Shown here: positions 4,287 through 20,900 of the stretch, one piece after another | Numbering within the stretch: the stretch's first letter is position 1 | Layout of the letters: each line of letters begins with the position of its first letter | From: Daejeonella sp. | GTDB taxonomy: Bacteria; Bacteroidota; Bacteroidia; Sphingobacteriales; Sphingobacteriaceae | NCBI RefSeq assembly: GCF_030684675.1 | Contig: NZ_JAUXXZ010000067.1 | Coordinates: 1-38,089, forward strand | Reading direction: 5' to 3' | Length of the DNA stretch: 38,089 nt | Program-made: the position numbers and the translations under genes | The notes under the pieces: generated by a model | What the model saw: only the letters and a program-made list of their open reading frames with translations | Told to the model about the DNA's origin: nothing | The model's database searches: none

Positions 4287-5603
4287 ATGGAAAGAAGACA
4301 ATTCATGTCAAATACGCTTTTGGCGGGTTTAGGAGGATTTAGCCTTAATGCATTCGGATCTGAGTATCATGCTGCTTCTGAAAGCATGGATAATTTAGAG
4401 TCAAAAGGCCTTGAGCTAAACAAACTTCATGAATTTTATCATGCTGAGATATTCAAGCGATTTATCCCGAATATGGATAAGTATGTAATTGATCATCAGC
4501 TTGGCGGTTTCATGACTTCCATAGATATTACCAATGGAAAACAGGCCAATCCAAATAAGACTGCCTGGTTTGAAGGCAGGGGGATGTGGACTTATTCTTT
4601 TCTGTACAATAACCTTGAAAAGAATCCTAAATACCTCGAAGTTGCACGTAAATCAAAGGATTTCATCCTGAAGCATCTTCCTACAGATGACAAGTTTTTC
4701 ACTTCTTCATATACTAATGATGGTAAGCCTTTGTCAGGCTCCGGTGATATTTATTCCAGTTTATTTGTAGCCGAAGGTCTGGCAGAGTATGCCAAGGCTT
4801 CCGGTGATAAGCAGTATTTTACGATTGCCAAGAAGATTATTTTATCCTGCCTTAAAAGATATGAAAGTCCTGATTACGACTATTATGTAGCTTATTTGAA
4901 TCCGGGTGCAACTAAAATTTCTGGCCCAAGGGTACTTGGTCATTGGATGGTGTTTTTGCGTGCGGCCACTCAGATTTTGGAGAATGGGCCGGATGCTGAT
5001 ATGGAGAAATTAGCTGACAGATGTCTGGATGCTTGCCTGAATCATCATCTAAACCCTCAATATCAGTTGTTCAATGAGGTTTTGAACCACGATTTCAGTC
5101 GCCCGGATAACTCATACAAGGATTTCTCTTATACTGGTCATGGTATAGAAATGTGCTGGATGTTGCATTTTGAGGCTGCCCGCAGAAAGGATAAAAAGCT
5201 TTTCGATCGGATCACAGAGATATTTAAAAGACATGTTACTGTAGCACATGATGATGTATATGGGGGTTATTTCAGAGCTCTTGATCATGTTGATAGTAAT
5301 ATCTGGAAAGTAGATAAAGTACTTTGGCTTCAGGAAGAGGTTCTGATTGGTAGTATGTTCATCGCTGAGCACACCGGAGAGGAATGGGCAAAAGAACTCT
5401 TTAACGAAACCCTTGAATATGTTCGGAAAAGTTTTGTCAAGCCCGGTAATTTATTCTGGGCTTCGGCTGGGGATCGGTTTATGAAGGATTATGCAAAAAT
5501 TAGGGCTGAACATTATCATCATCCCCGGCACCTGATGTTGAATCTGCTTGCCTTAAAACGAATGATTAAACGTAATGGTAAACCTTCCGGACTTTTCGGA
5601 TAA
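4287..5603 (+). CDS. Tat-exported AGE-family (N-acylglucosamine 2-epimerase fold) protein, copy 1
   Basis: 438 residues. The N-terminus MERRQFMSNTLLAG is a twin-arginine signal, so the folded enzyme should be exported. The mature part is an alpha/alpha-barrel of the AGE/cellobiose-epimerase type: GGF near 73-75, the 'KTAWFEGRGMW' segment at 91-101, 'GHGIE' with H285 and E288, 'VLWLQEE' near 345-351, and 'EHYHHPR' with H409, H411 and H412 near the C-terminus. AGE-fold epimerases use two histidines in the later two motifs as acid/base, and these are kept. The likely role is epimerisation or isomerisation of a free or N-acylated sugar in the periplasm; the exact substrate cannot be read. It is followed after 30 bp by a close paralogue and is the first gene of the plus-strand run. 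The C-terminus 'KPSGLFG' is shared with its paralogues. Confidence 0.8.
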   Translation: MERRQFMSNTLLAGLGGFSLNAFGSEYHAASESMDNLESKGLELNKLHEFYHAEIFKRFIPNMDKYVIDHQLGGFMTSIDITNGKQANPNKTAWFEGRGMWTYSFLYNNLEKNPKYLEVARKSKDFILKHLPTDDKFFTSSYTNDGKPLSGSGDIYSSLFVAEGLAEYAKASGDKQYFTIAKKIILSCLKRYESPDYDYYVAYLNPGATKISGPRVLGHWMVFLRAATQILENGPDADMEKLADRCLDACLNHHLNPQYQLFNEVLNHDFSRPDNSYKDFSYTGHGIEMCWMLHFEAARRKDKKLFDRITEIFKRHVTVAHDDVYGGYFRALDHVDSNIWKVDKVLWLQEEVLIGSMFIAEHTGEEWAKELFNETLEYVRKSFVKPGNLFWASAGDRFMKDYAKIRAEHYHHPRHLMLNLLALKRMIKRNGKPSGLFG

Positions 5604-5633
5604 TATCAGCCGAATTAAATTGAATAAAAGTAT

Positions 5634-6971
5634 ATGATTAATAAGGAATATTCCAGACGTAATTTTTTAAAACAGAATACCCTTGCAGGATTAGGTCTGG
5701 TGGGTTCAGCTGTCTTTGCAGGATCAGTTTTGCCAGCTGATGCCCTGGCTTCACAATCTCAGGATCTGAAAAAGATTACAGGGCTCGATTTTAGAAAACT
5801 CCGTGAACAGTATAAAGAGGCCTTGCTAGGTAAATTTATTCCGAACCTGGGTAAATACGTAGTGGATCATGAACTTGGTGGATTTATGTGCTCTGTGGAT
5901 ATTCTGACCAGAAAACTGGTTAATACGACTAAGCGGGCATGGTTTGAGGGTAGGGGGATCTGGATGTATTCCTTCCTGTATAATAATCTGGATAAGGATC
6001 CTGCTTATCTTGAAATCGCCCGTAAATCCAAAGACTTTATCTTAAGGCGTTTGCCTGCTGATGGCAGCTATTATATCTCATCCTTTACAAAGGAAGGCGA
6101 GCCAATTGGTGATATCGAAGGAGATATCTATGGAAATCTTTTCGTAGCCGAGGGACTGGCGGAATATGCTAAAGCGACAGCCGAACCTAAATATTTTGAT
6201 CAGGCAAAAGAAATTGTATTGAAAGCTGTACAGCGTTATGACAGACCTGAATTTACTTACAACTACAAGGCAGAAAACAGAGTAGCAGGCCCGCGAATTC
6301 TGGGGCACTGGATGATTTTATTGAGTGTATGTACACAAATGCTGAGGCAAAGAAGTGATAAGGAAATCAGGGCATTAGCCGATCGTTGTGTAGATGCGAT
6401 TATGAATCATCACTTGAATAAAGATTACAGACTTTTAAATGAAGCTCTGGCTCATGATATGAGTCCGCTTCCGGATCCTGTAGCCTCTCAATATGGTGAC
6501 CTGGGGCATGGTTGTGAAACACTCGCATTTGTGATGAATTATGCCGTGCTGATTAAGGATGCTGATCTCTTTCACCGATCGGCTAAAGAATTTAAGAGAC
6601 ATGTGGATACCTCATCGGATGATATTTATGGCGGTTTTTATCATGAGCTTACTCATGTAGACAAAAATGTATGGACTCTGAATAAATTACGCTGGGTCCA
6701 TGAAGAGATATTGATTGGTGCAATGATCCTGATTGAGCATACGGGAGACGAATGGGCGATTAATTGTTATGCAAAGACTGAGGCTTACATCAGAAAGAAT
6801 TATGTTCGTCCGGAGTATGCATTTGTCATCGATAGTGGCGATAGAAAGATGCAAAAGCATACCCAGGTGAGAGCAGAGCACTATCATTATCCAAGACAAT
6901 TAATGGTGGGTATACTTGCAATAGATAGGATAATAAGCAGAGGAGAGAAGCCCTCTGGCTTATTTTCATAA
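5634..6971 (+). CDS. Tat-exported AGE-family epimerase-like protein, copy 2
   Basis: 445 residues with a classical Tat signal, SRRNFLK at 7-13 followed by a hydrophobic stretch. It is colinear with the preceding gene throughout and roughly half identical by eye, so the two are a tandem duplication that has diverged. Conserved parts include 'RAWFEGRGIW' at 101-110, 'GHGCE' with H292 and E295, 'LRWVHEE' and 'EHYHYPR' with H416 and H418. Copy 1 has Gln (LWLQEE) where this one has His (RWVHEE), a change in a wall of the expected active site that may alter substrate choice. It ends in 'KPSGLFS'. Only 30 bp separate the pair, consistent with one transcript. Function as a sugar 2-epimerase or isomerase is inferred from fold. 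Confidence 0.8.
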   Translation: MINKEYSRRNFLKQNTLAGLGLVGSAVFAGSVLPADALASQSQDLKKITGLDFRKLREQYKEALLGKFIPNLGKYVVDHELGGFMCSVDILTRKLVNTTKRAWFEGRGIWMYSFLYNNLDKDPAYLEIARKSKDFILRRLPADGSYYISSFTKEGEPIGDIEGDIYGNLFVAEGLAEYAKATAEPKYFDQAKEIVLKAVQRYDRPEFTYNYKAENRVAGPRILGHWMILLSVCTQMLRQRSDKEIRALADRCVDAIMNHHLNKDYRLLNEALAHDMSPLPDPVASQYGDLGHGCETLAFVMNYAVLIKDADLFHRSAKEFKRHVDTSSDDIYGGFYHELTHVDKNVWTLNKLRWVHEEILIGAMILIEHTGDEWAINCYAKTEAYIRKNYVRPEYAFVIDSGDRKMQKHTQVRAEHYHYPRQLMVGILAIDRIISRGEKPSGLFS

Positions 6972-7036
6972 AATACAGCAGGCCAGAAGATCAATATTGG
7001 TTTGTTTTTAGATAATAATTATAATAAAATTCTCCG

Positions 7037-8089
7037 ATGAGTAAGAAAATATATGAAGGCCAGGCATTTTATAATGCACCATTTGTAGTTGAAAGTTTTA
7101 ACGGCATGCCATACCGCGTTCTCGGTAAATCCGGATTAAAAGTTTCAAATATAGGATTGGGAACCTGGAAAATGGGATATCCGGAAAGTGGGGATGACTC
7201 CAGGATTGATAAGAAAAATTCGTTCAGTATTCTCGACAAGGCAATAGACCTTGGGGTTACTTTTTGGGATACTGCAAACAGATATAATAATGCTTCGGGA
7301 AATTCGGAAAGGATTCTTGGGAAGTGGTTTAAGAAAAATCCTGAGCAAAGACGCAATGTTGTGCTTGCGACAAAAATGGCCGGAACAATGGACGGATTAA
7401 GTCCGAATCATTGCGGACTTTCAAGAGGAAATATCATGGAAGCGGTTTATGCTAGTCTTGAAAGGCTTCAAACTGACCATATCGACTTGCTTTATTTTCA
7501 CAGATTTGATGGAATTACCCCTCCTGAAGAAAGTCTGACTGCAATTGAAGATCTAGTAAAACAGGATCTGATACGCTATTTTGCTGTATCAAATGCCAGC
7601 GTTGATATTCTTAAAACCTACCAGGCTGTCCAGTCTCAAATGTCTGTAAGAAACCGGATACTCGCTGTACAGAACCAGTTTGATCTGCTCGATGGAGAAG
7701 CTGCGGAAGACAGGGGTGTTTTGAATTATGCTTCAGAACAGGGGATATCTTTCATCGGCTGGAGCCCGATGGCCAGGGGGCTGCTGACAAACAGATACCT
7801 GAATCCTGTAAATGTCGGTCCTGGCGACCGTTTGTTTGATGAGGGTGACCTGAAAGCAAAAACAAGCCCTGAAAATATGGCTAAACTACATGCGCTTGCG
7901 GTTATTTCAGATGAAATGGGAGTTGAGCTCAGCCAGCTTGTTATGGCTTATATGCTGACAATGAAAGGTATGGGGCCAATCATTCCATCCTCATCCAGTG
8001 TGAAACAGCTTGAATCTAACGCAGCAGCTGGTAAGCTTGTTCTTACTGATAAACAAATTGCAAGGGTAAAGAAAATTGTAAACTATTAA
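7037..8089 (+). CDS. Aldo/keto reductase
   Basis: 350 residues, no signal peptide, so cytoplasmic. The family's catalytic tetrad is visible: D78 in 'FWDTANRY', Y83, K113 in 'VVLATKMAG' and H155 in 'DLLYFHRFDG'. The start of the barrel reads 'YRVLGKSGLKVSNIGLGTWKMG', typical of the AKR11/YhdN-like NAD(P)H-dependent reductases, and the C-terminal 'IIPSSSSVKQLESNAAAGKL' is the usual cofactor phosphate-binding segment. In sugar loci such enzymes reduce a keto or aldehyde sugar, or work in the oxidative direction. It sits 65 bp after the AGE pair and 10 bp before the lyase gene, so it probably belongs to their operon. Substrate not determinable. Confidence 0.92.
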   Translation: MSKKIYEGQAFYNAPFVVESFNGMPYRVLGKSGLKVSNIGLGTWKMGYPESGDDSRIDKKNSFSILDKAIDLGVTFWDTANRYNNASGNSERILGKWFKKNPEQRRNVVLATKMAGTMDGLSPNHCGLSRGNIMEAVYASLERLQTDHIDLLYFHRFDGITPPEESLTAIEDLVKQDLIRYFAVSNASVDILKTYQAVQSQMSVRNRILAVQNQFDLLDGEAAEDRGVLNYASEQGISFIGWSPMARGLLTNRYLNPVNVGPGDRLFDEGDLKAKTSPENMAKLHALAVISDEMGVELSQLVMAYMLTMKGMGPIIPSSSSVKQLESNAAAGKLVLTDKQIARVKKIVNY

Positions 8090-8099
8090 ATAAATCCTG

Positions 8100-9668
8100 A
8101 TGTCAAGTTTCAGATCCATTTTCGCTGCTTTTCCCATTATTGTTCTGACAGCAATGAGCAGTATTGCCCAACCAAAAAAACTGGAACAGAAAGCCCGTAC
8201 AGCAATGTTAGCTGCAACCCGTTTTATGGTAGAAAAAGCAAGTGTGAACGGAGGCTATGTTGCTCATTATCTTCCAGATTTCTCACGCCGCTGGGGAGAG
8301 CTGGAAGGTTTTAAAACTCAGGTTTGGGTTCAGGATCCCGGTACAGTGAGTATGGGAAATGTGTTTCTTGATGCCTATAAAGCTACCGGAGATGACTATT
8401 ACTATACAGCGGCAGAAAAAGTTGCATCGGCACTGATCTGGGGTCAGCTACCTGAAGGTGGATGGAATTATATGATTGATTTTGCCGGAGACCGTTCTTT
8501 AAAACAATGGTACAACACCATTGGTAAAAATGCATGGGGTTTTGAAGAATACTATTATTACTATGGAACTTCTACATTTGACGATTCCAATACTTCGGGT
8601 CCGGCTTCTTTTCTTCTCAGACTTTATCTTCAGAAGATGGATAGCAAATATAAACCGGCACTTGATAAAGCTATTCAGTTAATAATTGACAGTCAGTATC
8701 CGCTTGGCGGATGGCCACAGCGTTTTCCTCTTAAAGACAATCATCCTAAAAATGGCAAAGAAGATTATTCGGCATATTATACATTTAATGATGAAGTGAT
8801 TTCCGGAAACATAGACTTCCTGATTCAGTGTTATATCAATTTGGGAGAGGAACGTTTTCTTGATCCAATCCGTCGTGGGATGAATTTTTACCTGATTACT
8901 CAACAGGGGAATCCGCAGGGTGGTTGGGGACAACAATACAATATGGAACTTCAGGTTGCACATGCCCGTAGTTATGAACCACCTGCACTGATGCCAGGAT
9001 TTACCTATACCCATGTTTTGCTCCTGATGAAGTATTACCAGTTGACCGGCGACAGGAAATTCCTGGCACGTATTCCTGATGCGATCCAATGGCTTGAAAG
9101 TTGCCGCTTGCCCGCCGAAAAAAGCCTTGGGGGAACGCGTACCCATGCTACATTCATTGAGATCGGAACCAATAAAGGGCTTTATGCTCACCGCAAGGGT
9201 ACAGGAGTGAAGGATGGTCATTACTGGTGGGATTATGATGATAATAATCTGCTTGCACATTATGGGGGTAAAACCAATATTAATATTCAGTATCTTAAAG
9301 ATGAGTACCAGCGGGTAAACGCACTTTCAACTGAGGAAGCAAGCAGGAATTCACCCTTAAAAGCAGGAATGATCGAGGATGGTACTTTACCTCAGACCCA
9401 GTTTCTGCCAGCTAATTCTGCCGGAGCTATACCTGACGATACTATGGTATCGGTTATATTAAAAGCATTGGATCAGGATCGATGGCTCGTAAAACACATT
9501 CAAATCAGCAGGCCTTATTCGGTTTTACCGGATGGCTCGGAAATGAATACTGCGAAGCTCAGTGATGAAAATGGGAAGGGTATTGTCGATTTATCTGAAC
9601 AGCAATATATCTCCACACGTGAGTATGAAAAGAATATGGGATTATTAATCAGATATTTAAAAAAGTAA
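8100..9668 (+). CDS. PL10-like pectate lyase family protein, secreted
   Basis: 522 residues with a signal peptide ending near SSIAQ (about residue 23). The body is an alpha-helical toroid with segments recognisable from the pectic acid lyase family: 'SQYPLGGWPQRFPL', 'YYTFNDEVISGNIDFL', 'PQGGWGQQYN', 'ARSYEPPAL' and 'FLARIPDAIQWLE'. Family 10 polysaccharide lyases cleave polygalacturonate by beta-elimination; the members found in this kind of Bacteroidota cluster are more distant and their substrates are mostly unknown. There is only a 10-bp gap to each neighbour, a strong operon sign. With the heparinase II/III-type protein downstream it points to a uronate-containing glycan. The 193-residue frame on the opposite strand inside it is a shadow. 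Confidence 0.75.
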   Translation: MSSFRSIFAAFPIIVLTAMSSIAQPKKLEQKARTAMLAATRFMVEKASVNGGYVAHYLPDFSRRWGELEGFKTQVWVQDPGTVSMGNVFLDAYKATGDDYYYTAAEKVASALIWGQLPEGGWNYMIDFAGDRSLKQWYNTIGKNAWGFEEYYYYYGTSTFDDSNTSGPASFLLRLYLQKMDSKYKPALDKAIQLIIDSQYPLGGWPQRFPLKDNHPKNGKEDYSAYYTFNDEVISGNIDFLIQCYINLGEERFLDPIRRGMNFYLITQQGNPQGGWGQQYNMELQVAHARSYEPPALMPGFTYTHVLLLMKYYQLTGDRKFLARIPDAIQWLESCRLPAEKSLGGTRTHATFIEIGTNKGLYAHRKGTGVKDGHYWWDYDDNNLLAHYGGKTNINIQYLKDEYQRVNALSTEEASRNSPLKAGMIEDGTLPQTQFLPANSAGAIPDDTMVSVILKALDQDRWLVKHIQISRPYSVLPDGSEMNTAKLSDENGKGIVDLSEQQYISTREYEKNMGLLIRYLKK

Positions 9669-9678
9669 AACATTCTGA

Positions 9679-11475
9679 ATGAAATTCGAGAAAAAATTTC
9701 TGAAAAATCATAGAAACCCGGTAATCAGAACCGGAATGGTGCTGCTTCTTATTGCTCTTGTAATAATATCATGCTCAAAAATTTCCAGGACTTTGCCAGT
9801 CGGATTACCCGATAACGGCGGCTTGTTCCTTCCGGATAACTTCGAAGCGCTGGTTGTAGTAGACAGCATTGGTAAAGCCAGGCATCTGGCTGTGAATGAT
9901 AACGGAGATATTTATGTCAAATTAACCTTTAACCGGGCAATGAAGGGCTCAGGCGGTACCGTCGGATTGAGGGATTTGAATAAGGACGGCAAGGCTGATT
10001 CAATTGTTTATTTCGGTGATTATAAAGATATAGGTGGCTCTGCAGTTGGAATGACTATTCACGATGGTTATCTCTACACCAGTACTGTTAATCAGGTACT
10101 TAAGAATAAACTGACCCCGGGTCAGTTAGTTCCTCAAAGTAAAACAGAGGTTGTACTTACTGATCTTGATCCAAATGTTGCAAGAAACTGGCATACAACC
10201 AAACCTGTAGCATTTGACCTCAAAGGGTATATGTATGTTCCTTTTGGAACACCTTCAGATGCCGGTCAGGATATTACTAAATACGGTCCGATTGGAATAC
10301 CCGGTGGTAAAGGTTTGGATCCTTCACCTGAATTGGAAACCCATGGAGGAATCTGGAGGTTTGATGCATCCAAAACCAATCAAACCCAAAAGGACGGTTA
10401 TAAATTTGCGACGGGCATCAGGAGTGTTGTAGGTATGGTTTGGAGTCCGCTTGATGATAATTTGTATGCTGTAATGAATGGTATTGATAATTTTCGCACC
10501 ATTTTCCCTGATCTGTACACAGCATGGCAGGCGGCTGTTCTGCCTTCAGAGCCACTGCTCAAGGTTACAGAAGGCTCTGATTTTGGCTGGCCCTATGCTT
10601 ATTACGATCACATGTTAAAGAAAAATGTCTTGCAGCCCGGCTATGGTGGTGATGGTAAGATCATAGGAAGGGCCTCAAAATTTGACGCTCCTGTAATTGG
10701 TTTTCCAGGGCACTGGGCACCAATGGATGTGATGTTTTATCAGGGCAATCAATTCCCTGAGCGTTATAAACAAGGAGCTTTTGTCGCATTTCATGGTTCA
10801 ACCGATCGTTCACCTTATCCACAGGCAGGCTATATAGTATGTTTTGTGCCCTTTAAAGACGGGGCTCCTACCGGTGAATGGGAGGTATTTGCAGACGGTT
10901 TTACCGGAGTAGATACCGTGATTAATACCAGTGATGCAGTTTATCGTCCAATGGGACTTGCAACCGGACCTGATGGATCTTTGTATATATCTGAATCTAA
11001 TAAAGGAAAGATCTGGAGGATAATGTATAAGGGAGATAAGAAGGAATTCGGGGAGAAACAGCTTGCAGGTATGGAACTCAGAAAGAGCAGATCATACATT
11101 AAAACACCGGATGAGCTTAAAGATAATTTGCATAGAGGCGACCGTCTGGCTGGAAGTATTTTATATAATACCTATTGTGCATCCTGTCATCAACGGGATG
11201 GCAAAGGTGATAATAGTCGTTTCCCTCCGCTTGCCGGATCTGAATGGGTAACAGGTGATAAACAGAGACTGATCAGTGTAATTCTCAACGGACTGGATGG
11301 GGAAATAACAGTGAATGGACAATCCTGGCAGGGCATGATGCCTGCACATGCTGAATTTCTGGATGACCATGCCATTGCATCAATCTCGACCTATATCCGC
11401 CAGAGTTTTGGTAATAAAGCCGGACCAGTCAGTAGCCTTGAAGTTAATGAGGTAAGGAAGAAGTCCAGGAACTAA
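9679..11475 (+). CDS. Sorbosone dehydrogenase-like beta-propeller lipoprotein with C-terminal cytochrome c
   Basis: 598 residues. The N-terminal hydrophobic run ends in a lipobox with C32 (LVIISC), so it is membrane-anchored and extracytoplasmic. Residues 50-450 resemble the glucose/sorbosone dehydrogenase six-bladed propeller ('GDIYVKL', 'FATGIRSVVGMVWSP', 'GSDFGWPYAYYD', 'PMGLATGPDGSLYISE'). Residues 485-585 are a class I cytochrome c domain with C500-A-S-C503-H504 binding haem and a Met in 'GMMPAH' as the likely axial ligand. Such fusions oxidise a sugar at the propeller, usually with PQQ, and pass electrons to the haem. Whether the propeller binds PQQ is not visible. It starts 10 bp after the lyase gene. 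It would oxidise the sugar released outside the cytoplasm, for example aldose to aldonate. Confidence 0.82.
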   Translation: MKFEKKFLKNHRNPVIRTGMVLLLIALVIISCSKISRTLPVGLPDNGGLFLPDNFEALVVVDSIGKARHLAVNDNGDIYVKLTFNRAMKGSGGTVGLRDLNKDGKADSIVYFGDYKDIGGSAVGMTIHDGYLYTSTVNQVLKNKLTPGQLVPQSKTEVVLTDLDPNVARNWHTTKPVAFDLKGYMYVPFGTPSDAGQDITKYGPIGIPGGKGLDPSPELETHGGIWRFDASKTNQTQKDGYKFATGIRSVVGMVWSPLDDNLYAVMNGIDNFRTIFPDLYTAWQAAVLPSEPLLKVTEGSDFGWPYAYYDHMLKKNVLQPGYGGDGKIIGRASKFDAPVIGFPGHWAPMDVMFYQGNQFPERYKQGAFVAFHGSTDRSPYPQAGYIVCFVPFKDGAPTGEWEVFADGFTGVDTVINTSDAVYRPMGLATGPDGSLYISESNKGKIWRIMYKGDKKEFGEKQLAGMELRKSRSYIKTPDELKDNLHRGDRLAGSILYNTYCASCHQRDGKGDNSRFPPLAGSEWVTGDKQRLISVILNGLDGEITVNGQSWQGMMPAHAEFLDDHAIASISTYIRQSFGNKAGPVSSLEVNEVRKKSRN

Positions 11476-11539
11476 TGCCTAATCTGTTATTTACCACTTT
11501 ATTAATTGTACATTAATCACTTTAAATAATAAAAAAAAC

Positions 11540-12013
11540 ATGAAATCAACCATTTTATTAGGATCTCTACTCATTTTCGGATTGACATCCTGTGTAGGCA
11601 CTGTCTCAACAGACTCAGCAGAGTCCAAAAAAGCTATATCGGAGCGTAAAATAATTATGCCCGAAGGTTATAATCGTGGCCTTCCATTTACACCCGGCAT
11701 TCTGGTTGATGGGACTCTTTATGTTGCCGGATTTAGTGGTGAGGATGCAAAGACCGGTATTATTCCTGAAGAATTTGAAACAGAAGTAAAGCAGGCATTA
11801 GATAAGATTGGAGTGATTCTTAAAGAAGCTGATATGGATTACAAGGATGTAGTTTCTGTGCAGGTTTATATGACCGATATGGAACTATTTGAACGTATGA
11901 ATACAGTCTACCGCACTTATTTTGACGAACCACGTCCAACCCGTTCAATAATGGGAATTAAAAGTTTGATCGGACCTGCGAGAATTGAAATCACTGTTAC
12001 CGCCAAAAAATAA
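11540..12013 (+). CDS. RidA/YjgF-family protein with lipoprotein signal
   Basis: 157 residues. The N-terminus MKSTILLGSLLIFGLTSC carries a lipobox with C18, so this RidA domain (about residues 37-157) is predicted to be lipid-anchored outside the cytoplasm. The fold is clear: 'GILVDGTLYVAGFSGED', 'VKQALDKIGVILKEADMDYKDVV', 'VYMTDMELFERMNTVY', 'EPRPTRS' and 'IEITVTA'. R135 in PTRS aligns with the Arg105 of enteric RidA that holds the substrate carboxylate and is needed for imine/enamine hydrolysis. Classical RidA is cytoplasmic and clears 2-aminoacrylate made by PLP enzymes; here a Tat-exported PLP enzyme lies two genes downstream. A role in hydrolysing an enamine produced by that enzyme is an inference. 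Confidence 0.88.
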   Translation: MKSTILLGSLLIFGLTSCVGTVSTDSAESKKAISERKIIMPEGYNRGLPFTPGILVDGTLYVAGFSGEDAKTGIIPEEFETEVKQALDKIGVILKEADMDYKDVVSVQVYMTDMELFERMNTVYRTYFDEPRPTRSIMGIKSLIGPARIEITVTAKK

Positions 12014-12080
12014 TAAAATAGAGTTATATACCCACGCAGGATTATTTCCTGTAAAATTTTAAAAATACTGTTTATATAAA

Positions 12081-12821
12081 ATGAAGATTAATATATCTGA
12101 GAATCCGGTCGAATTAGGAAAAGTGTCTGCAGCCGCTGCAATTGAAGGAATTAAAAAAGCTATTGCTGAAAAGGGACAGGCCAATGTAATACTTGCAACC
12201 GGTGCAAGTCAGTTTGAAACATTAAAAAATATTGTTCTTGACCAGAGCATTGACTGGTCTAAAATGGTTATGTTTCATTTGGATGAATATATTGGATTGC
12301 CGGAAACCGAACCAGCAAGTTTCAGGAAATATTTAAAAGAGCGATTTCTTAATCTTGTCGCTCCACTAAAAGCCAGTCATCTGGTAAATGGCGAGAATGA
12401 TCCCACAGCAGAATGCAAGCGATTAAATGAGATCATCACAAAACATCCGATCGATGTAGCTTTGGTAGGGATTGGTGAAAACGGACACCTGGCTTTTAAT
12501 GATCCTCCGGCGGATTTCGACACGGAAATGCCTTATATTGTTGTAAATCTGGACGAAAAATGTCGTTTACAACAGTTTAATGAGGGTTGGTTTAAGACAA
12601 TAGAAGAAGTTCCGAAGCAGGCTATCAGTATGTCGATCAGGCAGATATGTAAGTCAAAAATGATAATATGTTCAGTTCCGGATGCCAGAAAAGCCGAGGC
12701 AGTTAAAAATTCATTGGAGAATGAGGTGAGCAATAATTTCCCCGCCAGTATCCTGCAGACTCATTCCAATTGCATTTTTTACCTTGATAAACCTTCGGCA
12801 TCATTACTCAGCAATAACTAA
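12081..12821 (+). CDS. Glucosamine-6-phosphate deaminase (NagB)-like protein
   Basis: 246 residues, no signal peptide, cytoplasmic. NagB-family motifs: 'ILATGASQ' at 37-44, phosphate binding; 'FHLDEYIGL' with D68, matching catalytic Asp72 of E. coli NagB; and 'GIGENGHLAFNDP' with H136, matching His143. The position of Asp141 is N134, as in Bacillus-type enzymes, and the position of Glu148 is D141, a conservative but unusual change. NagB converts glucosamine-6-phosphate to fructose-6-phosphate and ammonia; an alternative sugar-phosphate substrate is possible for this divergent branch. It starts 67 bp after the RidA gene and ends 11 bp before the PLP enzyme. Its presence hints that an amino sugar is handled by the locus. 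Confidence 0.8.
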   Translation: MKINISENPVELGKVSAAAAIEGIKKAIAEKGQANVILATGASQFETLKNIVLDQSIDWSKMVMFHLDEYIGLPETEPASFRKYLKERFLNLVAPLKASHLVNGENDPTAECKRLNEIITKHPIDVALVGIGENGHLAFNDPPADFDTEMPYIVVNLDEKCRLQQFNEGWFKTIEEVPKQAISMSIRQICKSKMIICSVPDARKAEAVKNSLENEVSNNFPASILQTHSNCIFYLDKPSASLLSNN

Positions 12822-12832
12822 TAAAAATCAAA

Positions 12833-14047
12833 ATGAAACGCAGAGATCTGATTAAATACCTATCCGTGGCTCCTTTGGCCGGCGGACTTAGTGGTGTGCC
12901 CTTTAATACTGCCAATGCAAGCGTGAATTCACTTGCAAAGCGCGATCTGATCAAAGAATTAGGATTGCGGACTTTCATTAACGCTTATGGAGTATATACT
13001 ACCCATACAGCCTCGCTAATGGCTGATGAGGTTATGGATGCGATTAAGGCTGCTTCAAAAAAATATGTGTTATACAATGATCTTCAGGATAAGGTAGGTG
13101 AAAAAATTGCCGCTATGTGTCATTCAGAGGCTGCTATGGTCACATCAGGCTGCTGGTCGGCACTTGTACTTGGAACTGCTGGAATTCTAACCGGAATGGA
13201 TAAGGCTAAAGTTTCCATATTGCCTGACGTCTCAGGTTTTGAAAGAAGCGAGGTTATTCTTCAGAAAACTCATAGTGGTTCATACGATCATGCACTGACT
13301 AATACAGGTATAAAACGTGTTTTTGTAGAGACAGCAGAAGAAATGGAAGCTGCAATTAATTCAAAAACTGCAATGACCTGGTTTTATAATGAAGCAGATC
13401 CATGGGGGAAAATTGGATATAAGCAATGGCTGGCTCTATCCCAAAAGCATAAAATACCTGCAATGATTGATATTGCTGCTGATGTACCTCCTGTTGAGAA
13501 TCTATGGAAGTTCAATGATATGGGTTATGATGTGGTTTGTGTTTCGGGTGGAAAAGCCATCCGCGGACCACAGAGTGCCGGTATTTTGATGGGCAAAAAA
13601 GAGATTATTGCCGCCGCCAGACTAAGTGCACCTCCCGGAGGAGGGAATATCGGTAGGGGTATGAAAGTGAATAAAGAGGAGATTTTCGGGATGTATGCAG
13701 CTCTTGATCGTTTTGTTAATCTGGATCATGGGAAAGAATGGCAGATGTGGGAAGACAGAGCCAATGTAATCCTGAATGCGGTGAAAAAGGTGAATGGTGT
13801 TAAGGCCGAAATTTTTGTCCCACCAATAGCTAATGTTACTCCAACCCTCCGAATCTCCTGGGATCAATCCTTGATTAAGTTAACTCCGAGGGAAATGAGT
13901 TTAAATTTGCGCAATGGTGAACCTTCTATTGAAGCACCAAAGAGTATCAATGATGCGATGATTCTTTCGGTATGGATGATGCAGCCGGGAGATGAAAAAA
14001 TCGTTGCAAAGCGATTTGCCGAGGAACTAATGAAAGCCAGAGTTTAA
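12833..14047 (+). CDS. Tat-exported SelA-like PLP-dependent enzyme
   Basis: 404 residues. The N-terminus MKRRDLIKYLSVAPLAGG is a Tat-type signal, cleaved near residue 29. The mature part is a fold-type I PLP enzyme of the SelA/DgaE-like branch: 'AYGVYTTHTASLMADEV', 'AAMVTSGCWSALVLGTAGI', 'AMIDIAADVPP' with the ring-stacking Asp, and 'VSGGKAIRGPQSAGIL' where K241 should form the Schiff base. Relatives include D-glucosaminate-6-phosphate ammonia-lyase, and such genes often sit next to amidohydrolases as here (gap 36 bp). It is not a selenocysteine synthase, since no selenium genes accompany it. Tat export fits an enzyme that must fold around PLP before leaving the cytoplasm. The likely chemistry is an alpha,beta-elimination releasing ammonia through an enamine. 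The substrate is unknown. Confidence 0.82.
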   Translation: MKRRDLIKYLSVAPLAGGLSGVPFNTANASVNSLAKRDLIKELGLRTFINAYGVYTTHTASLMADEVMDAIKAASKKYVLYNDLQDKVGEKIAAMCHSEAAMVTSGCWSALVLGTAGILTGMDKAKVSILPDVSGFERSEVILQKTHSGSYDHALTNTGIKRVFVETAEEMEAAINSKTAMTWFYNEADPWGKIGYKQWLALSQKHKIPAMIDIAADVPPVENLWKFNDMGYDVVCVSGGKAIRGPQSAGILMGKKEIIAAARLSAPPGGGNIGRGMKVNKEEIFGMYAALDRFVNLDHGKEWQMWEDRANVILNAVKKVNGVKAEIFVPPIANVTPTLRISWDQSLIKLTPREMSLNLRNGEPSIEAPKSINDAMILSVWMMQPGDEKIVAKRFAEELMKARV

Positions 14048-14083
14048 AAAGCCCGGCAATTTTTAATTTTTAATTTATACTTC

Positions 14084-15337
14084 ATGCTACGCAAACTATC
14101 CCTGCTTTTATTGACAACAATATTCATTTCAAGCAATGTTGAGGCTCAAAGACCCTATAGAATACTTATAAAGGGTGGTCATGTAATTGATGCTAAGAAT
14201 AGCATCAACGAAAAAATGGATGTGGCCATTCAGGAAGGAAAAATTGTCAGAGTTGCAAAGAACATTGACACCGCCCTAGCTGTTCAGGTAGTTGATGCTG
14301 CTGGAATGTATGTTACTCCCGGACTGATCGATCTGCATGCCCATGTTTTTTATGGATTTGACCCTGACAGTTATCTGAGTGGGGGTACAGTAGCTGTACT
14401 CCCTGATCAGTCAACTTTCCGCGCCGGCGTTACAACAGTTGTGGATGCAGGAGGTGCTGGTTGGAGATCCTTCCCGACTTTCAAGAAGAATATTATTGAT
14501 GTCTCAAAAACCAGGGTTCTTTCTTTATTAAATATAGTAGGAGAGGGTATGAAGGGTATTGAAAAGTATGAACAGAATGTTAGTGATATGGATGCAAAAA
14601 AAACTGCTGAAGTTGCACTGGCGAACAAGAATGATGTTGTTGGTTTTAAGGTGGCGCATTTTACAGGCTCCGAATGGACACCGATCAGTAGGGGAGTAGA
14701 AGCCGGGAAACTTGCCAATATGCCAGTGATGATTGATCTGAATACCCTTTTTATATCTATTGAAGAGCTATTCACTAAATATCTCCGTCCAGGGGATATT
14801 TACACCCACACCTTCATCCAGTCGTCAAGGGGGGTAGTTGAGCCCATAGTTGATCTTAAAACAAAGAAATTTAAGCTATTTGTTCTGGAAGCTCAACGAA
14901 AAGGGATCATATTTGATGTTGGTTTTGGTGGAGGCAGTTTTAACTTCAACCAGGCTTTGCCGGCATTAAAAGCTGGATTTTATCCAAATACTATGGGAAC
15001 TGACTTACATCAGGGTAGTGTGAATGGTGCGATGAAAGATCAGTTAAATGTTTTGTCCATATTCATGGCGATGGGAATGAAATTTCCTGATATGATCAAA
15101 GCCAGTACCTGGACTCCTGCACAAGTTATTAAGCGCGAAGAACTGGGAAACCTTTCGGAAGGAGCGTTGGCGGATGTAGCAATATTAAGTATTCGTGACG
15201 GTAAATTTGGTTTTCGCGATGTGGCCGGAAACAGATTTGATGGTAAACAAAAGATCGATTGTGAGCTAACAATCCGGGATGGAAAGATTGTATATGATTT
15301 GAATGCAATAGCCGGCCTGATCAATCAGTCCAAATAA
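14084..15337 (+). CDS. Secreted amidohydrolase/deacetylase-family metallohydrolase
   Basis: 417 residues with a signal peptide ending near residue 21 (SSNVEAQ). Amidohydrolase-superfamily features: beta-strand 'ILIKGGHVIDAKNSINEKMDVAIQEGKI', H85-A-H87 metal pair in 'GLIDLHAHVF', K189 in 'VGFKVAHF' as the probable carboxylated lysine, H242 in 'YTHTF' and D307 in 'MGTDLHQ'. The other metal histidine, expected in 'DVGHG', is F281 here ('DVGFGGGSF'). The group containing Atu3266 and EF0837 is paired with SelA-like genes and deacetylates small N-acyl or O-acyl acids. By context this one would remove an acyl group from the substrate of the neighbouring PLP enzyme. It is the last gene of the first block and is followed by a repeat-filled gap. 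Confidence 0.82.
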   Translation: MLRKLSLLLLTTIFISSNVEAQRPYRILIKGGHVIDAKNSINEKMDVAIQEGKIVRVAKNIDTALAVQVVDAAGMYVTPGLIDLHAHVFYGFDPDSYLSGGTVAVLPDQSTFRAGVTTVVDAGGAGWRSFPTFKKNIIDVSKTRVLSLLNIVGEGMKGIEKYEQNVSDMDAKKTAEVALANKNDVVGFKVAHFTGSEWTPISRGVEAGKLANMPVMIDLNTLFISIEELFTKYLRPGDIYTHTFIQSSRGVVEPIVDLKTKKFKLFVLEAQRKGIIFDVGFGGGSFNFNQALPALKAGFYPNTMGTDLHQGSVNGAMKDQLNVLSIFMAMGMKFPDMIKASTWTPAQVIKREELGNLSEGALADVAILSIRDGKFGFRDVAGNRFDGKQKIDCELTIRDGKIVYDLNAIAGLINQSK

Positions 15338-15719: not shown

Positions 15720-16262
15720 ATGGAAGATATTAACCCGGAAGTTCAGGATGACAGAATACTTTTACTGCAGTTGCAGGAAGGTAAGAGGACTGCCTTTAAT
15801 ATTTTGTATAATAAGTACTGGGAACAAACCTATTCAAATGCTTACAAACGTTTGAGAGATGAAGATCAGGCGAAGGATATTGTGCAGGAGATTTTTGTGA
15901 GTATTTGGGTGAACAGGCATAGTCCGATAAATAATTTACCTGCATATTTAAGCATATCAGTCCGAAACCAGGTATTCAAACTGGCTGCAAAGAGCAAAAA
16001 CTTAACTCCTTATTTAGAAATATTTGATAATATACCGGCTCATAATGAAAAGGCAGATGCCAATCTTTTATGGCAGGAATTCTACCGCTCTTATGAGCAA
16101 TTACTTTTGACACTGCCTCCCAAAAGGCAGCAAATATTCAGACTTCGTTTTCACGATGATATTCCTACAAAGACTATTGCCAGCCAGATGCGAATTTCCC
16201 GAAAAACTGTTCAGAATCAGTTGGGAAAAGCAATAGAACAATTGCGGGTTTTCTTTTATTAA
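15720..16262 (+). CDS. ECF-type RNA polymerase sigma-70 factor of the FecI/SusC-locus type
   Basis: 180 residues, typical length. Region 2 covers about 15-90 ('AFNILYNKYWEQTYSNAYKR', 'DEDQAKDIVQEIFVSIWVNR', core binding and -10 recognition). Region 4 covers about 120-175 ('LLLTLPPKRQQIFRLRFHDD', then the helix-turn-helix 'TKTIASQMRISRKTVQNQL'). In Bacteroidota such sigma factors are held by a FecR anti-sigma and released when SusC, through its STN domain, senses its ligand. The FecR gene follows on the same strand, but 438 bp away, an unusually long gap filled with hairpins. Expected target: the promoter of the downstream susC. An alternative frame starting at 15577 overlaps it and is not coding. 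Confidence 0.93.
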   Translation: MEDINPEVQDDRILLLQLQEGKRTAFNILYNKYWEQTYSNAYKRLRDEDQAKDIVQEIFVSIWVNRHSPINNLPAYLSISVRNQVFKLAAKSKNLTPYLEIFDNIPAHNEKADANLLWQEFYRSYEQLLLTLPPKRQQIFRLRFHDDIPTKTIASQMRISRKTVQNQLGKAIEQLRVFFY

Positions 16263-16700: not shown

Positions 16701-17687
16701 ATGGACAAGAAATATTTTTCTGAATTATTAAACAAATACTTGAAGCATGAAGCCTCGGAAGAAGAGTGTGATCTGCTGATAAAGCATTATAATCTGTTTG
16801 AATCAGAGCCTGATATTTTTGATAATATGTCTCAGAATCAGAAAGCTGATATCAGGAATGAAATTGAAAACAAAATTTGGGATGAGATCCTTGATGATGA
16901 AATTAGTCCGAAAAACGTTTCTTCTTCAAACCATCGGATGTGGATCAATTTTATATCTTTTGCAGCAGTATTGTTGATTATATTAAGTACAGGATTTTAT
17001 TTTTTCAGGAATGAACCTGTTAAGCAAACGAATGTCATTTCCAGACAGATAGATATAAAAGAGAACAGGTTGATACAGTTGCCGGATGGAAGTAACGTTA
17101 TTTTGCGACCGGGTGCTAAATTGAATTATCCTTCTTCCTTCGATGGCCTTGCACTAAGAGAGGTTTATTTGGATGGGCAGGCTTATTTTGACATTAAGCA
17201 CAATTCCCTGAAACAATTTATTATTCACACAGGTAAATTGAAAACCATAGTTCTTGGGACTGCATTTGAAATTAATGCATGGTCTGATGATTCCAGCATT
17301 CAGGTAACAGTTAGCCGGGGCAAGGTAAGGGTTGAAGATCAAAATAACAGAACGATAGGAATTATCACACCAAATCAACAGATTACTTATGATAAAACCA
17401 GTAAAAACGTTGTTCAAAAGGTGGTAAATGCTCCTGAGTATATGGAATGGAAAGAACAGGATTTGTTATTGAGTGATGTAACGGTTGCTGAAGCCGCCAT
17501 GCTTTTGGAGAGTCGCTATAAGGTTGAGATAATAATTTCAGACGATAGTATCAGATCGAAGCGCTTTACAACTATTGTCAGGAAAGGTGAAACTCTTGAT
17601 CAGATTTTAAAAAGTATGTCCGAGTTTAATGATGCTGTTTATCAATATGATGTTGGTAAAGCAGTAATTACGCTGGATTCAAAATAG
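16701..17687 (+). CDS. FecR-family anti-sigma factor
   Basis: 328 residues in the usual three parts. Residues 1-70 are the cytoplasmic sigma-binding helices ('YFSELLNKYLKHEASEEECDLL'). Residues 81-102 are a single membrane segment. Residues 115-215 are the periplasmic FecR domain ('IQLPDGSNVILRPGAKLNYP', 'REVYLDGQAYFDI', 'LGTAFEINAW'), and residues about 255-326 the C-terminal DUF4974-type domain ('DVTVAEAAMLLESRYKVEI', 'TTIVRKGETLDQILKSM'). It should hold the ECF sigma factor and release it when the SusC STN domain signals. It lies between sigma and susC, as is standard, but is preceded by a 438-bp hairpin-rich gap. Confidence 0.95.
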   Translation: MDKKYFSELLNKYLKHEASEEECDLLIKHYNLFESEPDIFDNMSQNQKADIRNEIENKIWDEILDDEISPKNVSSSNHRMWINFISFAAVLLIILSTGFYFFRNEPVKQTNVISRQIDIKENRLIQLPDGSNVILRPGAKLNYPSSFDGLALREVYLDGQAYFDIKHNSLKQFIIHTGKLKTIVLGTAFEINAWSDDSSIQVTVSRGKVRVEDQNNRTIGIITPNQQITYDKTSKNVVQKVVNAPEYMEWKEQDLLLSDVTVAEAAMLLESRYKVEIIISDDSIRSKRFTTIVRKGETLDQILKSMSEFNDAVYQYDVGKAVITLDSK

Positions 17688-17907: not shown

Positions 17908-20900
17908 ATGAATATTTTTACACTTCTTGCTGAAAATCAGCAAAAACCGCATTTTGCCTATTATTTAAGGCAACTTTTTGACAAATTATTATTGATAATT
18001 ATGCAACTCAGATTAGCATTTTTTATTGTTTTAACAACCTCAATTCAGCTTTTCTCGGCTCCACCGGTAAAGAGTCAGGCAATTGATAAGGTTGAAATAA
18101 AGTTTGAGCTTAAAAACGAGTCTTTAGTGAAGGCTTTTCAAAAAATTGAGAAGCAAAGTCAATTTCAATTCATGTATCGCTATGCCGATGTAAAGGATAT
18201 TAACAAGTTGGAGTTGTTCGCAGAAAAAATGTCTGTCGCTGATATCTTGAAAGAATTGTTATCAAATACTTCACTTGATTTTAAACAGGTAGATAACAGG
18301 ATCATGATTGTCAATAATCAAAAGGGTGGGAATGATGCAAATACTGTCAAATTAAATGATAATGTAGCTTCCAACTTACTCGATATAGTCGTCAAAGGCC
18401 AGGTAAAAGACGATAAGGGTGAAACTCTCCCGGGGGTGAGTGTTATGGTAAAGGGTAGTGCAAATGGTACTTCAACAGACATTGACGGTAACTATTCAAT
18501 TAATGTTCCTGATAATGCGACTTTAGTTTTTACCTATATTGGTTATGTTACTCAGGAGGTTGTAGTTAACAACAGAAGTATGATTAGTGTTACGTTAGTG
18601 ACTTCTGCAACTTCATTAAGTGAAGTCGTTGTTACTGCATTGGGAATAGAAAGGGAAGCAAAGTCACTTACTTATGCTACACAGGGTGTAAGTGCCAAAG
18701 AACTTTCCGAGACCCGCAGTTTAAATGTGGTCAATTCATTACAGGGCAAGGTTGCCGGTATGACTATTGAATCGGCAGGAACTGGTCTGGGTAGTCCATC
18801 CCGGGTAATATTGAGGGGAAATCGTTCTCTTACCGGTGGTAGCGGACCATTATATGTGATTGATGGGGTACAAATGAGCACTGCCATCTCGAATATCAGT
18901 CCTGATAATATTGAGTCAATCAACGTATTAAAAGGTCCGAATGCAGCTGCATTATATGGAAGTGCTGCACAGAACGGAGCTATTATTATCGAAACAAAGA
19001 AAGGTAAAGCTGGATTTGTTCAGGTTAGTTTAAATGAAACCTTTATTGCGGGTTCACCTATTCATTATCTGGAACCACAAAATGAGTATGGACAAGGAGT
19101 TTCAGGAATATATAATGCTACCGCTGAAGAATCCTGGGGTCCTAAAATGACTGGTCAGATGGTTAATCATTGGTCGAACGCCCCTGGTAAGGCGGGAACA
19201 CAATATGCCTTTCTTCCACAACCCAACAATTTTAGGGATATCTTTAATACCTCCCAATATGTAACTCATAATTTTAATGCTTCGGTAGGTTCTCAAAACA
19301 CACAGTCTGCATTTTCATATACACGTGAGGAAGCTAAAGGTTTGGTTGATAACAATGAATTGCGCAGACATAATGCTTCGGTAAGAGTAACCAGTCAGTT
19401 AAGAAAATGGCTTACCCTAGATACTAAATTGAACTATATCCGCAATGAAATAGATAATCAGAGTGGGACAGGTGATAATGCTGCCAACAACCCTTATATG
19501 AATATCTATCGACTTCCAAGGAATATTGCATTCGAAGATTTGCGACAGTTTGAATACACTGATCCCTTAACCGGTAAAAACAAACAAAATTTTTGGTCTC
19601 CGGGTTCAACTATTGGAAGAAACCCATATTGGATTTTGAATAGAGTTTTAAATTATCAAACTTCGGACCGCTTACTTGCGATGGGTTCATTTACCATCAA
19701 TTTCACAGATAAGCTTAAAGTAATGGCACGTACTTCATTTGATGGGGGTTCTAATACTTTAGAACGTAAAGCATGGGAAGATTCTTATGGTGGAGGACAG
19801 GATAATTTTGGTAGTTATAGTGGATCTATTGGTGGACCTGGGGGAGTTTGGAATAGTGATGCAATCATTTCTTACAATGATCAAATAACAAAAAACATAA
19901 ATGTTTCGGGTTTAGTTGGAGCTAATCTAAGAAAGCAGGATGGTTCTGGAAGCATTGCAACCAGTACACAGGCGGGTTTAACCATTCCAAATTTCTTTTC
20001 CCTTGCAAATACTTCATTGGTAGCCGGCTCATTTACCCCAAGTACCAGGATGGAGTCGCAATCTTTGTATTTTTCGGGAAATTTTGGTTGGAAAAATGTA
20101 CTTTATCTGGATATTACCGGTCGTAACGATTGGAGTTCAACGCTACCGGCTGATAGCCGTTCCTATTTTTATCCATCAGTTGGTTTGTCGGCAATTCTTT
20201 CAGATATAATCCCATCCCTTCCTTCAGCTTTGACTTACGCTAAAGTAAGAGCATCCTGGGCTAAAGTTGGAAATAGTGCAGATCCTTATCAGTTAAGCCG
20301 TTCGGCTTTATTTAATGGTAACGGGGGAAATAATGGCTTTATAACTTTGGGTAGTGTTTTACCAAATACGGAACTTAGACCTGAAACTACTGAGGGCTAT
20401 GAGCTTGGATTGGATTTACGCTTTTTTCAGGGTCGATTGGGTTTAGATCTAACAGCCTATAAAACCAATACTTATGATCAACTCTTCACCATTTCATTAC
20501 CTTCAGGTTCAGGTGCTGCTTCATTCTTTACGAACGGTGGCGACGTTCAGAACACTGGTTTTGAAGCAATTATTTCGGCAACTCCTGTTCAAACAAAACG
20601 TGGATTTACCTGGGATTTAAGCACAAACTTTGCTACCAATAGAAACTGGGTCAACAAAATCTCTGATGACCGCCCGAGAATTATTGTAGGTGGTGATTCT
20701 TATTTATATGACTTTGTTGTAGAACAAGGTAAAGAGTTTGGTGATATTTATACCCGTGGCTGGCAAAGAGATGCCCAGGGTAGGGTAATAGTTGGAGCAA
20801 ATGGGATACCATTATTTACACCAGGCAGAACCGTGAAGTCAGCTAATTTTAATCCGGATTGGATGGGAGCTATTTCAAATACGTTTTCATACAAAAACCT

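Follow-up and report, generated by a model that had tools for sequence, protein, structure and literature searches.

An exported PLP enzyme, RidA, and amidohydrolase in Daejeonella and their possible role in deaminating acylated amino compounds outside the cytoplasm

The window analyzed here is a whole contig of 38,089 bases (NZ_JAUXXZ010000067.1) from the genome of a Daejeonella sp., which is 4.25 Mb in size and 98.97% complete. It contains a nine-gene same-strand run at positions 4287-15337, in which every gap is 67 bp or shorter. The main subjects of this report are three products of the run: a pyridoxal 5'-phosphate (PLP) enzyme, a RidA-family protein, and an amidohydrolase. Judging from these proteins and their relatives, it appears that certain bacteria of soil and water deaminate an acylated amino compound, probably an oxidized amino sugar, outside the cytoplasm. 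The genes of the run are given in order below, with Tat standing for twin-arginine translocation. Export was scored with our own rule-based test, not SignalP, and distinct proteins were counted.

4287..5603, plus strand: AGE-type (N-acylglucosamine 2-epimerase fold) protein with a Tat-type leader; PF07221, E 4.3e-22; homologs Tat in 8/8. MERRQFMSNTLLAGLG
5634..6971, plus strand: second AGE-type protein with a Tat-type leader; PF07221, E 3.8e-23; homologs Tat in 8/8.
7037..8089, plus strand: aldo-keto reductase, leaderless; PF00248, E 5.4e-68; homologs exported in 0/8.
8100..9668, plus strand: distant PL10-like (pectic acid lyase-like) secreted protein; PF09492, E 1.9e-23; below the TIGR02474 cut-off; homologs Sec in 9/9.
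9679..11475, plus strand: lipoprotein of 598 aa with a weak glucose/sorbosone dehydrogenase-type propeller and a C-terminal cytochrome c; PF07995, 26 bits; PF00034, 40 bits.
11540..12013, plus strand: lipoprotein RidA (enamine/imine deaminase family), 157 aa; PF01042, E 7.2e-24; Arg105 and Glu120 positions kept.
12081..12821, plus strand: NagB-like protein (glucosamine-6-phosphate deaminase family), leaderless, 246 aa; TIGR00502, E 3.8e-44, below cut-off.
12833..14047, plus strand: SelA/DgaE-like PLP enzyme with a Tat leader, 404 aa, proposed to be a beta-eliminating ammonia-lyase; TIGR01437, E 1.8e-44, below cut-off.
14084..15337, plus strand: Sec-exported amidohydrolase/deacetylase, 417 aa, proposed to be an N-deacylase; NF006689, 405.1 bits vs a cut-off of 371.

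The original prediction described four consecutive genes with export leaders at 9679-15337 and proposed that their products oxidize, deacylate, and deaminate an N-acyl amino sugar. The four genes are present, and their coordinates, leaders, and family matches were all found. They are not consecutive, because the NagB-like gene lies between the RidA and PLP genes. This gene had been overlooked, as had the start of the wider run at 4287 and the published cytoplasmic Ong pathway, which also uses a deacylase, a PLP deaminase, and RidA. The gene-level observation is confirmed in part, and its interpretation is supported in part.

The leader of the PLP enzyme starts MKRRDLIK and is of the Tat type. 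Over the whole chain, the closest solved homolog is the glucosaminate-6-phosphate lyase DGL (7lc0, profile E 6.7e-56), followed by 8t7j and SelA. Plain membership of DgaE is ruled out by scores below the cut-offs of both DgaE models (129.2 vs 600 and 152.2 vs 385.3 bits) and by the loss of the phosphate arginines and His163, described below. Lys241, Asp213, Arg275, and Lys278 are invariant in an alignment of 78 homologs (78/78), and Lys241 occupies the position of the PLP lysine. DGL residues are numbered as in PMC9529869, where the PLP lysine is Lys-217 (213 in the PDB chain) and His163, Arg226, Arg301, and Arg332 agree with the chain. The position of DGL Arg226, mapped by hand and near the carboxylate, holds Lys or Arg in 58/59 short-form and 12/19 long-form proteins. 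The long form (~530-575 aa) possesses an extra C-terminal domain of ~150 residues (TGRWDVDIEF...GEYINARF) and is encoded in loci L025, L026, L027, L033, L034, and L035, as well as in other copies. A DUF362 gene with a Tat-type leader adjoins the long-form gene in L025, L026, L027, and L033.

Arginines 301, 332, and 346 of DGL were modeled at the substrate phosphate (PMC9529869). They align with Thr338, Pro369, and Met382 of the window enzyme, and arginine is found at these positions in 1, 1, and 0 of the 78 homologs. Together with export, this loss fits an unphosphorylated substrate, as had been proposed. His163 is the proton donor of DGL (PMC9529869). It aligns with Glu187 of the window enzyme, and none of the homologs has His there (0/78). 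The H163A variant of DGL has a kcat of 20 per second vs 27 and, in its authors' interpretation, releases free enamine (PMC9529869). By analogy, a PLP enzyme without the proton-donor histidine would be expected to need a RidA protein nearby. The lost histidine may thus explain the exported RidA, which is co-encoded and mostly co-exported with the PLP enzyme.

The window RidA is a lipoprotein with an LTSC lipobox. Arg105 is present in 50/51 aligned RidA proteins, the window protein included, and Glu120 in 47/51. Arg105 is the residue by which imine deaminase-type RidA proteins are recognized (PMC7311433). Of the 15 RidA-family proteins in the source genome, 11 have a leader by eye. Two Tat-leader RidA genes on contig C4 (135144-136056) and a gene for a three-domain RidA protein with a Sec leader on contig C80 (82195-83232) have no PLP homolog nearby.

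The amidohydrolase has a Sec-type leader, and its score above the NF006689 cut-off places it in the PRK09237 family. His85, His87, Lys189, His242, and Asp307 are invariant in 19/19 aligned proteins and are likely the metal ligands. The related cog3964 amidohydrolases act on N-acetyl-D-amino acids.

Export is conserved among homologs, as originally proposed. The short-form PLP enzyme is Tat-type in 61/64 proteins; the exceptions are two masked or broken pieces in L033 and the protein of L112, which begins MKRRDVLK and fails the hydropathy limit. The long form is Tat-type in 16/19, the exceptions being L034 and L035, where the twin-arginine stretch lies deeper in the open reading frame (ORF), and L037, where the start is unclear. 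The amidohydrolase is exported in 81/83. RidA proteins of the Tat type carry the leader in 28/30, with two exceptions, on contigs C35 and C21, away from PLP genes. The long RidA type is exported in 8/10, with leaderless members in L028 and L116; that of L039 is leaderless by eye. Export was also scored for RraA-like proteins (18/18), SMP-30-type lactonases (10/10), and dehydrogenase-cytochrome proteins (19/20). The leaderless controls were sigma factors (0/22), aldo-keto reductases (0/8), KDPG (2-keto-3-deoxy-6-phosphogluconate) aldolases (0/3), and M81 proteins (0/3). TatC is encoded in the source genome, so both marks of a Tat substrate, leader and translocase, are found. In syntenic loci, every PLP enzyme and amidohydrolase whose start is clear has a leader; a few RidA proteins lack one. 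These leaders support the prediction that the PLP enzyme, amidohydrolase, and RidA act outside the cytoplasm.

The source genome encodes 18 PLP homologs and 24 amidohydrolases of the same kind (24 of 33 rows at E <1e-100; nine weak rows, with E from 7e-10 upwards, were dropped). Zones of 5 kb around the PLP genes make up 3.83% of the genome and contain 18/24 amidohydrolases (binomial P 3e-21, with tandem duplication ignored). Because so large a share falls in 3.8% of the genome, the arrangement exceeds chance. The same zones contain 6/15 RidA proteins (17 rows, three of them from one protein), 3/7 dehydrogenase-cytochrome proteins (12 rows, of which four cytochrome-only rows were dropped and two rows of one gene merged), and 1/6 RraA-like proteins. 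A PLP gene lies within 5 kb of 8/12 amidohydrolase clusters. Conversely, 13/18 PLP genes have an amidohydrolase and 9/18 a RidA gene within that distance.

Linkage was also counted in a sample of 40 loci, composed of the window, 12 stretches of the source genome (17/18 PLP genes), and 27 loci of relatives (7 of 29 plus 20). The sample omits a PLP gene cut between L047 and L048, the window-type loci L009-L017 and L031, and L020-L023, L026, L027, and L032-L037, which are near-duplicates, short, or distant. The loci of relatives are not independent, because several come from related species. ORFs were named by BLAST against window proteins and Pfam-annotated representatives. Of 52 PLP genes, 38 share a same-strand run with an amidohydrolase, 31 with RidA, 24 with SusD, 23 with an RraA-like gene, 18 with an SBF/SSF/SDF symporter, 15 with a dehydrogenase-type gene, and nine with a lactonase. 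RidA and amidohydrolase are both in the run in 22/40 loci. The tight linkage of PLP enzyme, amidohydrolase, and RidA is therefore upheld by the run counts. All four originally named families occur together in one run in 7/40 loci, namely the window, L024, L029, L041, L105, L109, and L110. The window order is kept in L009-L016 and L031 as far as these loci extend, with the dehydrogenase gene missing from L016.

The PLP homologs are found in 36/201 genomes of the family at E 1e-3, with 31 strong and five weak (above 1e-5) matches. Among 20 listed genomes of the genus, 14 have a homolog, the source included, and up to nine copies per genome were scored in the family search. Matches are seen in 8/395 genomes of the phylum at E 1e-40 and, with a profile at E 1e-30, in 8/395 of the class; both counts include the source genome. 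The nearest named relatives are metagenome-assembled genomes called Sphingobacteriales, Daejeonella, Sphingobacterium, and Pedobacter, with PLP protein identity of 95% or less. In a FastTree phylogeny of the 78 homologs, the source-genome paralogs are scattered, several of them beside genes of other genera. Some long-form copies group together, namely two of L042, and L043 with one of L047. The scattered positions rule out the idea that the 18 copies arose in one recent tandem expansion and imply that most are old or were acquired one by one. A viral link was rejected: 88 stretches in viral contigs matched a pattern, and none encodes a relative by tblastn.

Could the SelA-like protein be a racemase, retro-aldolase, or transferase, with the exported RidA serving as a general enamine guard? 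We consider this very unlikely. Such a role would accord with the failure of both DgaE cut-offs, with the loss of several DGL residues, and with the exported RidA genes that lie away from PLP homologs (C4:135144, C4:135700, and C80). A deaminating lyase is favored, however, by the retention of the PLP lysine, Asp213, and Arg275, by the carboxylate-side basic residue that the short form also keeps, and by the genomic coupling of the PLP gene to RidA and a deacylase.

Downstream of the run is a sigma/FecR pair, followed by SusC, SusD, and more secreted proteins.

15720..16262, plus strand: ECF (extracytoplasmic function)-type sigma factor of the SusCD locus; PF08281.
16701..17687, plus strand: FecR-type anti-sigma factor; PF04773, PF16344.
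17908..21405, plus strand: SusC-type TonB-dependent receptor; PF07715, PF13715.
21452..23107, plus strand: SusD-type lipoprotein; PF12741, E 4e-112.
30222..33422, plus strand: heparinase II/III-type secreted protein, a possible glycan lyase of the same locus; PF07940, E 1.4e-13.
35689..37050, plus strand: third AGE-type protein with a Tat-type leader; PF07221, E 6e-8. MENCEYSRRQFLKKNS

The window also encodes an M28 peptidase and, at its start and apart from the operon, a protein with a Beta-lactamase enzyme family domain (264-1160; PF13354, E 6e-53). A promoter scan of the DNA did no better than shuffles (44 vs 42.3), and terminator-like sites (17 vs 9.9) were not used.

Taken together, the data suggest, at about even odds (roughly 0.5), an exported catabolic module that works in the periplasm and strips an N-acylated 2-amino-3-hydroxy acid of its acyl group and its nitrogen. 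The likeliest substrate would be an N-acyl-2-amino-2-deoxy aldonate. Export leaders, gene linkage, and catalytic residues come from sequence, and from them we infer each reaction, the order of steps, and the substrate, including the choice of an amino-sugar acid. The N-acyl aldonate would be imported via SusC/SusD or made in place by the dehydrogenase, with a lactonase in other loci. The amidohydrolase would then take off the acyl group. The SelA-like enzyme may eliminate water and release an enamine/imine, which RidA would hydrolyze, giving ammonia and a 2-keto-3-deoxy acid. This acid would be taken up; in sister loci, an exported RraA-like enzyme may act on it first, outside the cell membrane, before uptake through an SBF-type Na+ symporter.

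Several findings weigh against this reading. Twelve of the 78 PLP homologs have a histidine elsewhere in the DGL His162/163 loop. In the source genome, 4/12 amidohydrolase clusters have no PLP gene within 5 kb, 5/18 PLP genes have no amidohydrolase within 5 kb, and just one of six RraA-like genes has a PLP gene that close. RidA-family proteins near PLP genes lack a leader in L028 and L116, and that of L039 is Sec by rule and leaderless by eye. Co-divergence of the PLP enzyme and the adjacent amidohydrolase is weak (r 0.36 over 25 pairs; r 0.52 in a 16-pair subset vs 0.34 for SusD).

The oxidation step is the weakest part of the scheme. The candidate dehydrogenase is a lipoprotein with a lipobox-like ISC leader, a propeller that matches PF07995 (GSDH) weakly (26 bits vs a cut-off of 25), and a cytochrome c domain with a CASCH motif. 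The nearest solved relatives of the propeller are pyrroloquinoline quinone sugar dehydrogenases (E 2e-5). The cytochrome c domain matches nitrite reductases and others, which has no bearing on the substrate. Aldose oxidation had been proposed as the first step, and a dehydrogenase-type gene is present. The proposal is weakened by three further contrary findings: such a gene shares a run with only 15/52 PLP genes, the orthologous operon of L016 lacks it, and no pqqE above cut-off was found in the source genome (best 49 vs 381 bits). The dehydrogenase is the least certain component and is not obligatory.

The NagB-like protein has as its nearest solved relative the glucosamine-6-phosphate deaminase 2bkv (E 1e-35). 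Its leaderless gene sits inside the window operon and, directly 5' of the PLP gene, in 9/9 other window-type loci (L009-L016, L031). RidA is visible upstream of it in eight of these nine; L015 begins too late. Homologs of the NagB-like protein are leaderless in 9/10, and one is called Sec. Two nagA genes score above cut-off in the source genome. Both the leaderless NagB-like gene and the nagA pair count against a fully exported route, and the former suggests that some of the amino sugar follows the usual phosphorylated route. The window set might then deal with just oxidized or odd ends, and the bulk of the amino sugar would be imported for a cytoplasmic kinase, NagA, and the NagB-like protein. 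We regard this as unlikely, since none of the 27 loci of relatives and none of the 13 other source-genome stretches counted has a NagB-like gene, and in L017 the exported module occurs without one. L017 is the next closest locus (PLP protein 78% identity) and has both the RidA and the PLP gene.

Where relatives carry one or two copies, the locus is compact and consists of SusC, SusD, RidA, PLP enzyme, amidohydrolase, RraA-like enzyme, and sometimes SBF (most of L099-L111). The RraA-like protein is ~310 aa, is exported, has an N-terminal extension (L106:5285-6208 and 17 others), and is encoded mostly in PLP-gene runs. Asp102, which presumably has a role in 4-hydroxy-4-methyl-2-oxoglutarate/4-carboxy-4-hydroxy-2-oxoadipate (HMG/CHA) pyruvate aldolase, has its position filled by Asp in 9/18. 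The Arg123-Asp124 pair, whose roles in the HMG/CHA aldolase are described in PMC5065237, is kept in 17/18. FlDet, an RraA-like enzyme from Bacteroidota, acts on a 2-keto-3-deoxy sugar acid as a dehydratase/decarboxylase (PMC8563752), so pyruvate cleavage is one of two options and aldolase activity is not assured. The SBF protein of L100 resembles the ketopantoate/pantoate carrier PanS (E 7e-68, below cut-off). Neighbors in sister loci point to sugar acids and include lactonases, a sugar-acid dehydratase homolog, and KDPG aldolases. Of three KDPG-aldolase genes in the source genome, two are no more than 10 kb from a PLP gene, one of them no more than 5 kb. In L018, L021, and L038, the PLP and amidohydrolase genes are followed by genes for a sulfatase, an enolase-superfamily sugar-acid dehydratase homolog with a Tat leader, and a BNR protein.

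A bolder and rather doubtful version is that Bacteroidota carry out the whole of amino-sugar breakdown outside the cytoplasm along an Entner-Doudoroff-like, phosphate-free route, and that the Daejeonella cassette has diversified to 18 PLP lyases, each for a different amino sugar. The dehydrogenase and lactonase would yield the N-acyl aldonate, and the amidohydrolase, a histidine-less PLP lyase that releases enamine, and exported RidA would convert it to the 2-keto-3-deoxy acid. The exported RraA-like aldolase might cut this acid, with the SBF symporter importing pyruvate.

Sequence does not separate serine-type substrates from D-glucosaminate, because the latter, too, is a 3-hydroxy D-2-amino acid. 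The exported trio could act on beta-hydroxy amino acids of D or L configuration that bear an N-acyl or gamma-glutamyl group, such as serine and threonine derivatives from peptides or other polymers, with SBF importing pyruvate or 2-oxobutyrate. OngC of the Ong pathway also deaminates D-serine and D-threonine (PMC9537276). The action of cog3964 amidohydrolases on N-acetyl-D-amino acids speaks for this alternative as well. Peptides are suggested by the M28 peptidase of the window and by the gamma-glutamyltranspeptidase and M81 (MlrC-type) genes in the PLP/RidA runs of L041 and L115. Compact loci L106, L107, L108, and L111 have no dehydrogenase, sugar oxidase, or glycosidase among their named ORFs, several ORFs there being unnamed. 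These gene contents, too, detract from an amino-sugar acid. On the other side, the window and sister loci encode glycan-lyase-like proteins, epimerases, CBM9, lactonases, the sugar-acid dehydratase homolog, and KDPG aldolases, and the closest solved PLP enzyme is a glucosaminate-6-phosphate lyase. Serine or threonine derivatives are on balance a fairly unlikely alternative to the N-acyl aldonate.

If the exported module acts as proposed, a branch of amino-sugar or amino-acid breakdown moves to the periplasm, with up to 18 PLP paralogs per genome. A role would be assigned to many SusCD-locus genes whose function is unknown. The idea that a PLP lyase without a proton donor needs RidA could also be tested cleanly on the module, and the fate of oxidized chitin-type sugars in soil Bacteroidota would become testable.

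To our knowledge, known PLP deaminations and RidA functions are all cytoplasmic. As the original prediction had supposed, no exported or periplasmic counterpart of the module turned up in the literature searched (open PMC papers only). The PLP enzyme is like DGL in keeping the PLP lysine and, in 58/59 short-form proteins, a basic residue at the Arg226 position. Unlike DGL, it lacks the phosphate arginines and His163, has a Tat leader, and is partnered by RidA and a deacylase, not a phosphotransferase system. The amidohydrolase shares by alignment the HxH, Lys, His, Asp pattern of the PRK09237/EF_0837/cog3964 family (PDB 8je0, 2ogj, 2ics) and differs from it in being secreted. The sister-locus RraA-like protein keeps the Arg123-Asp124 pair in 17/18, like HMG/CHA pyruvate aldolase and FlDet (PMC5065237, PMC8563752). 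Unlike them, it is exported, has an N-terminal extension, and varies at the Asp102 position.

The closest parallel is the Ong pathway of Pseudoalteromonas prydzensis (OngB, OngC, OngD, and KdgK), which converts N-acetylglucosaminate to 2-keto-3-deoxygluconate (PMC9537276, PMC12017989). Its RidA-family protein, OngD, is encoded by a gene essential for growth on N-acetylglucosaminate (PMC9537276). Both systems share, as predicted here from sequence, the order of activities from deacetylase to PLP deaminase, a RidA partner, the lack of prior phosphorylation, and TonB-dependent uptake. The RidA-family partner is present in the window and in the run of 31/52 PLP genes. In contrast, OngB and OngC are predicted to be cytoplasmic in the published accounts, whereas the PLP enzyme and amidohydrolase here have export leaders. 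OngC is of fold-type III, and the enzyme here belongs to the SelA/DgaE family by Pfam, NCBIfam, and PDB searches. The relatives of OngB are subtype V D-aminoacylases, and the amidohydrolase here is of the PRK09237/EF_0837 family. Membership of the Ong pathway is ruled out by the export leaders (61/64 and 81/83) and by the non-fold-type-III PLP family. Since the Ong pathway performs the same conversions, the logic of the proposed module is known; what is new, within the literature searched, is its compartment, its protein families, and its amplification.

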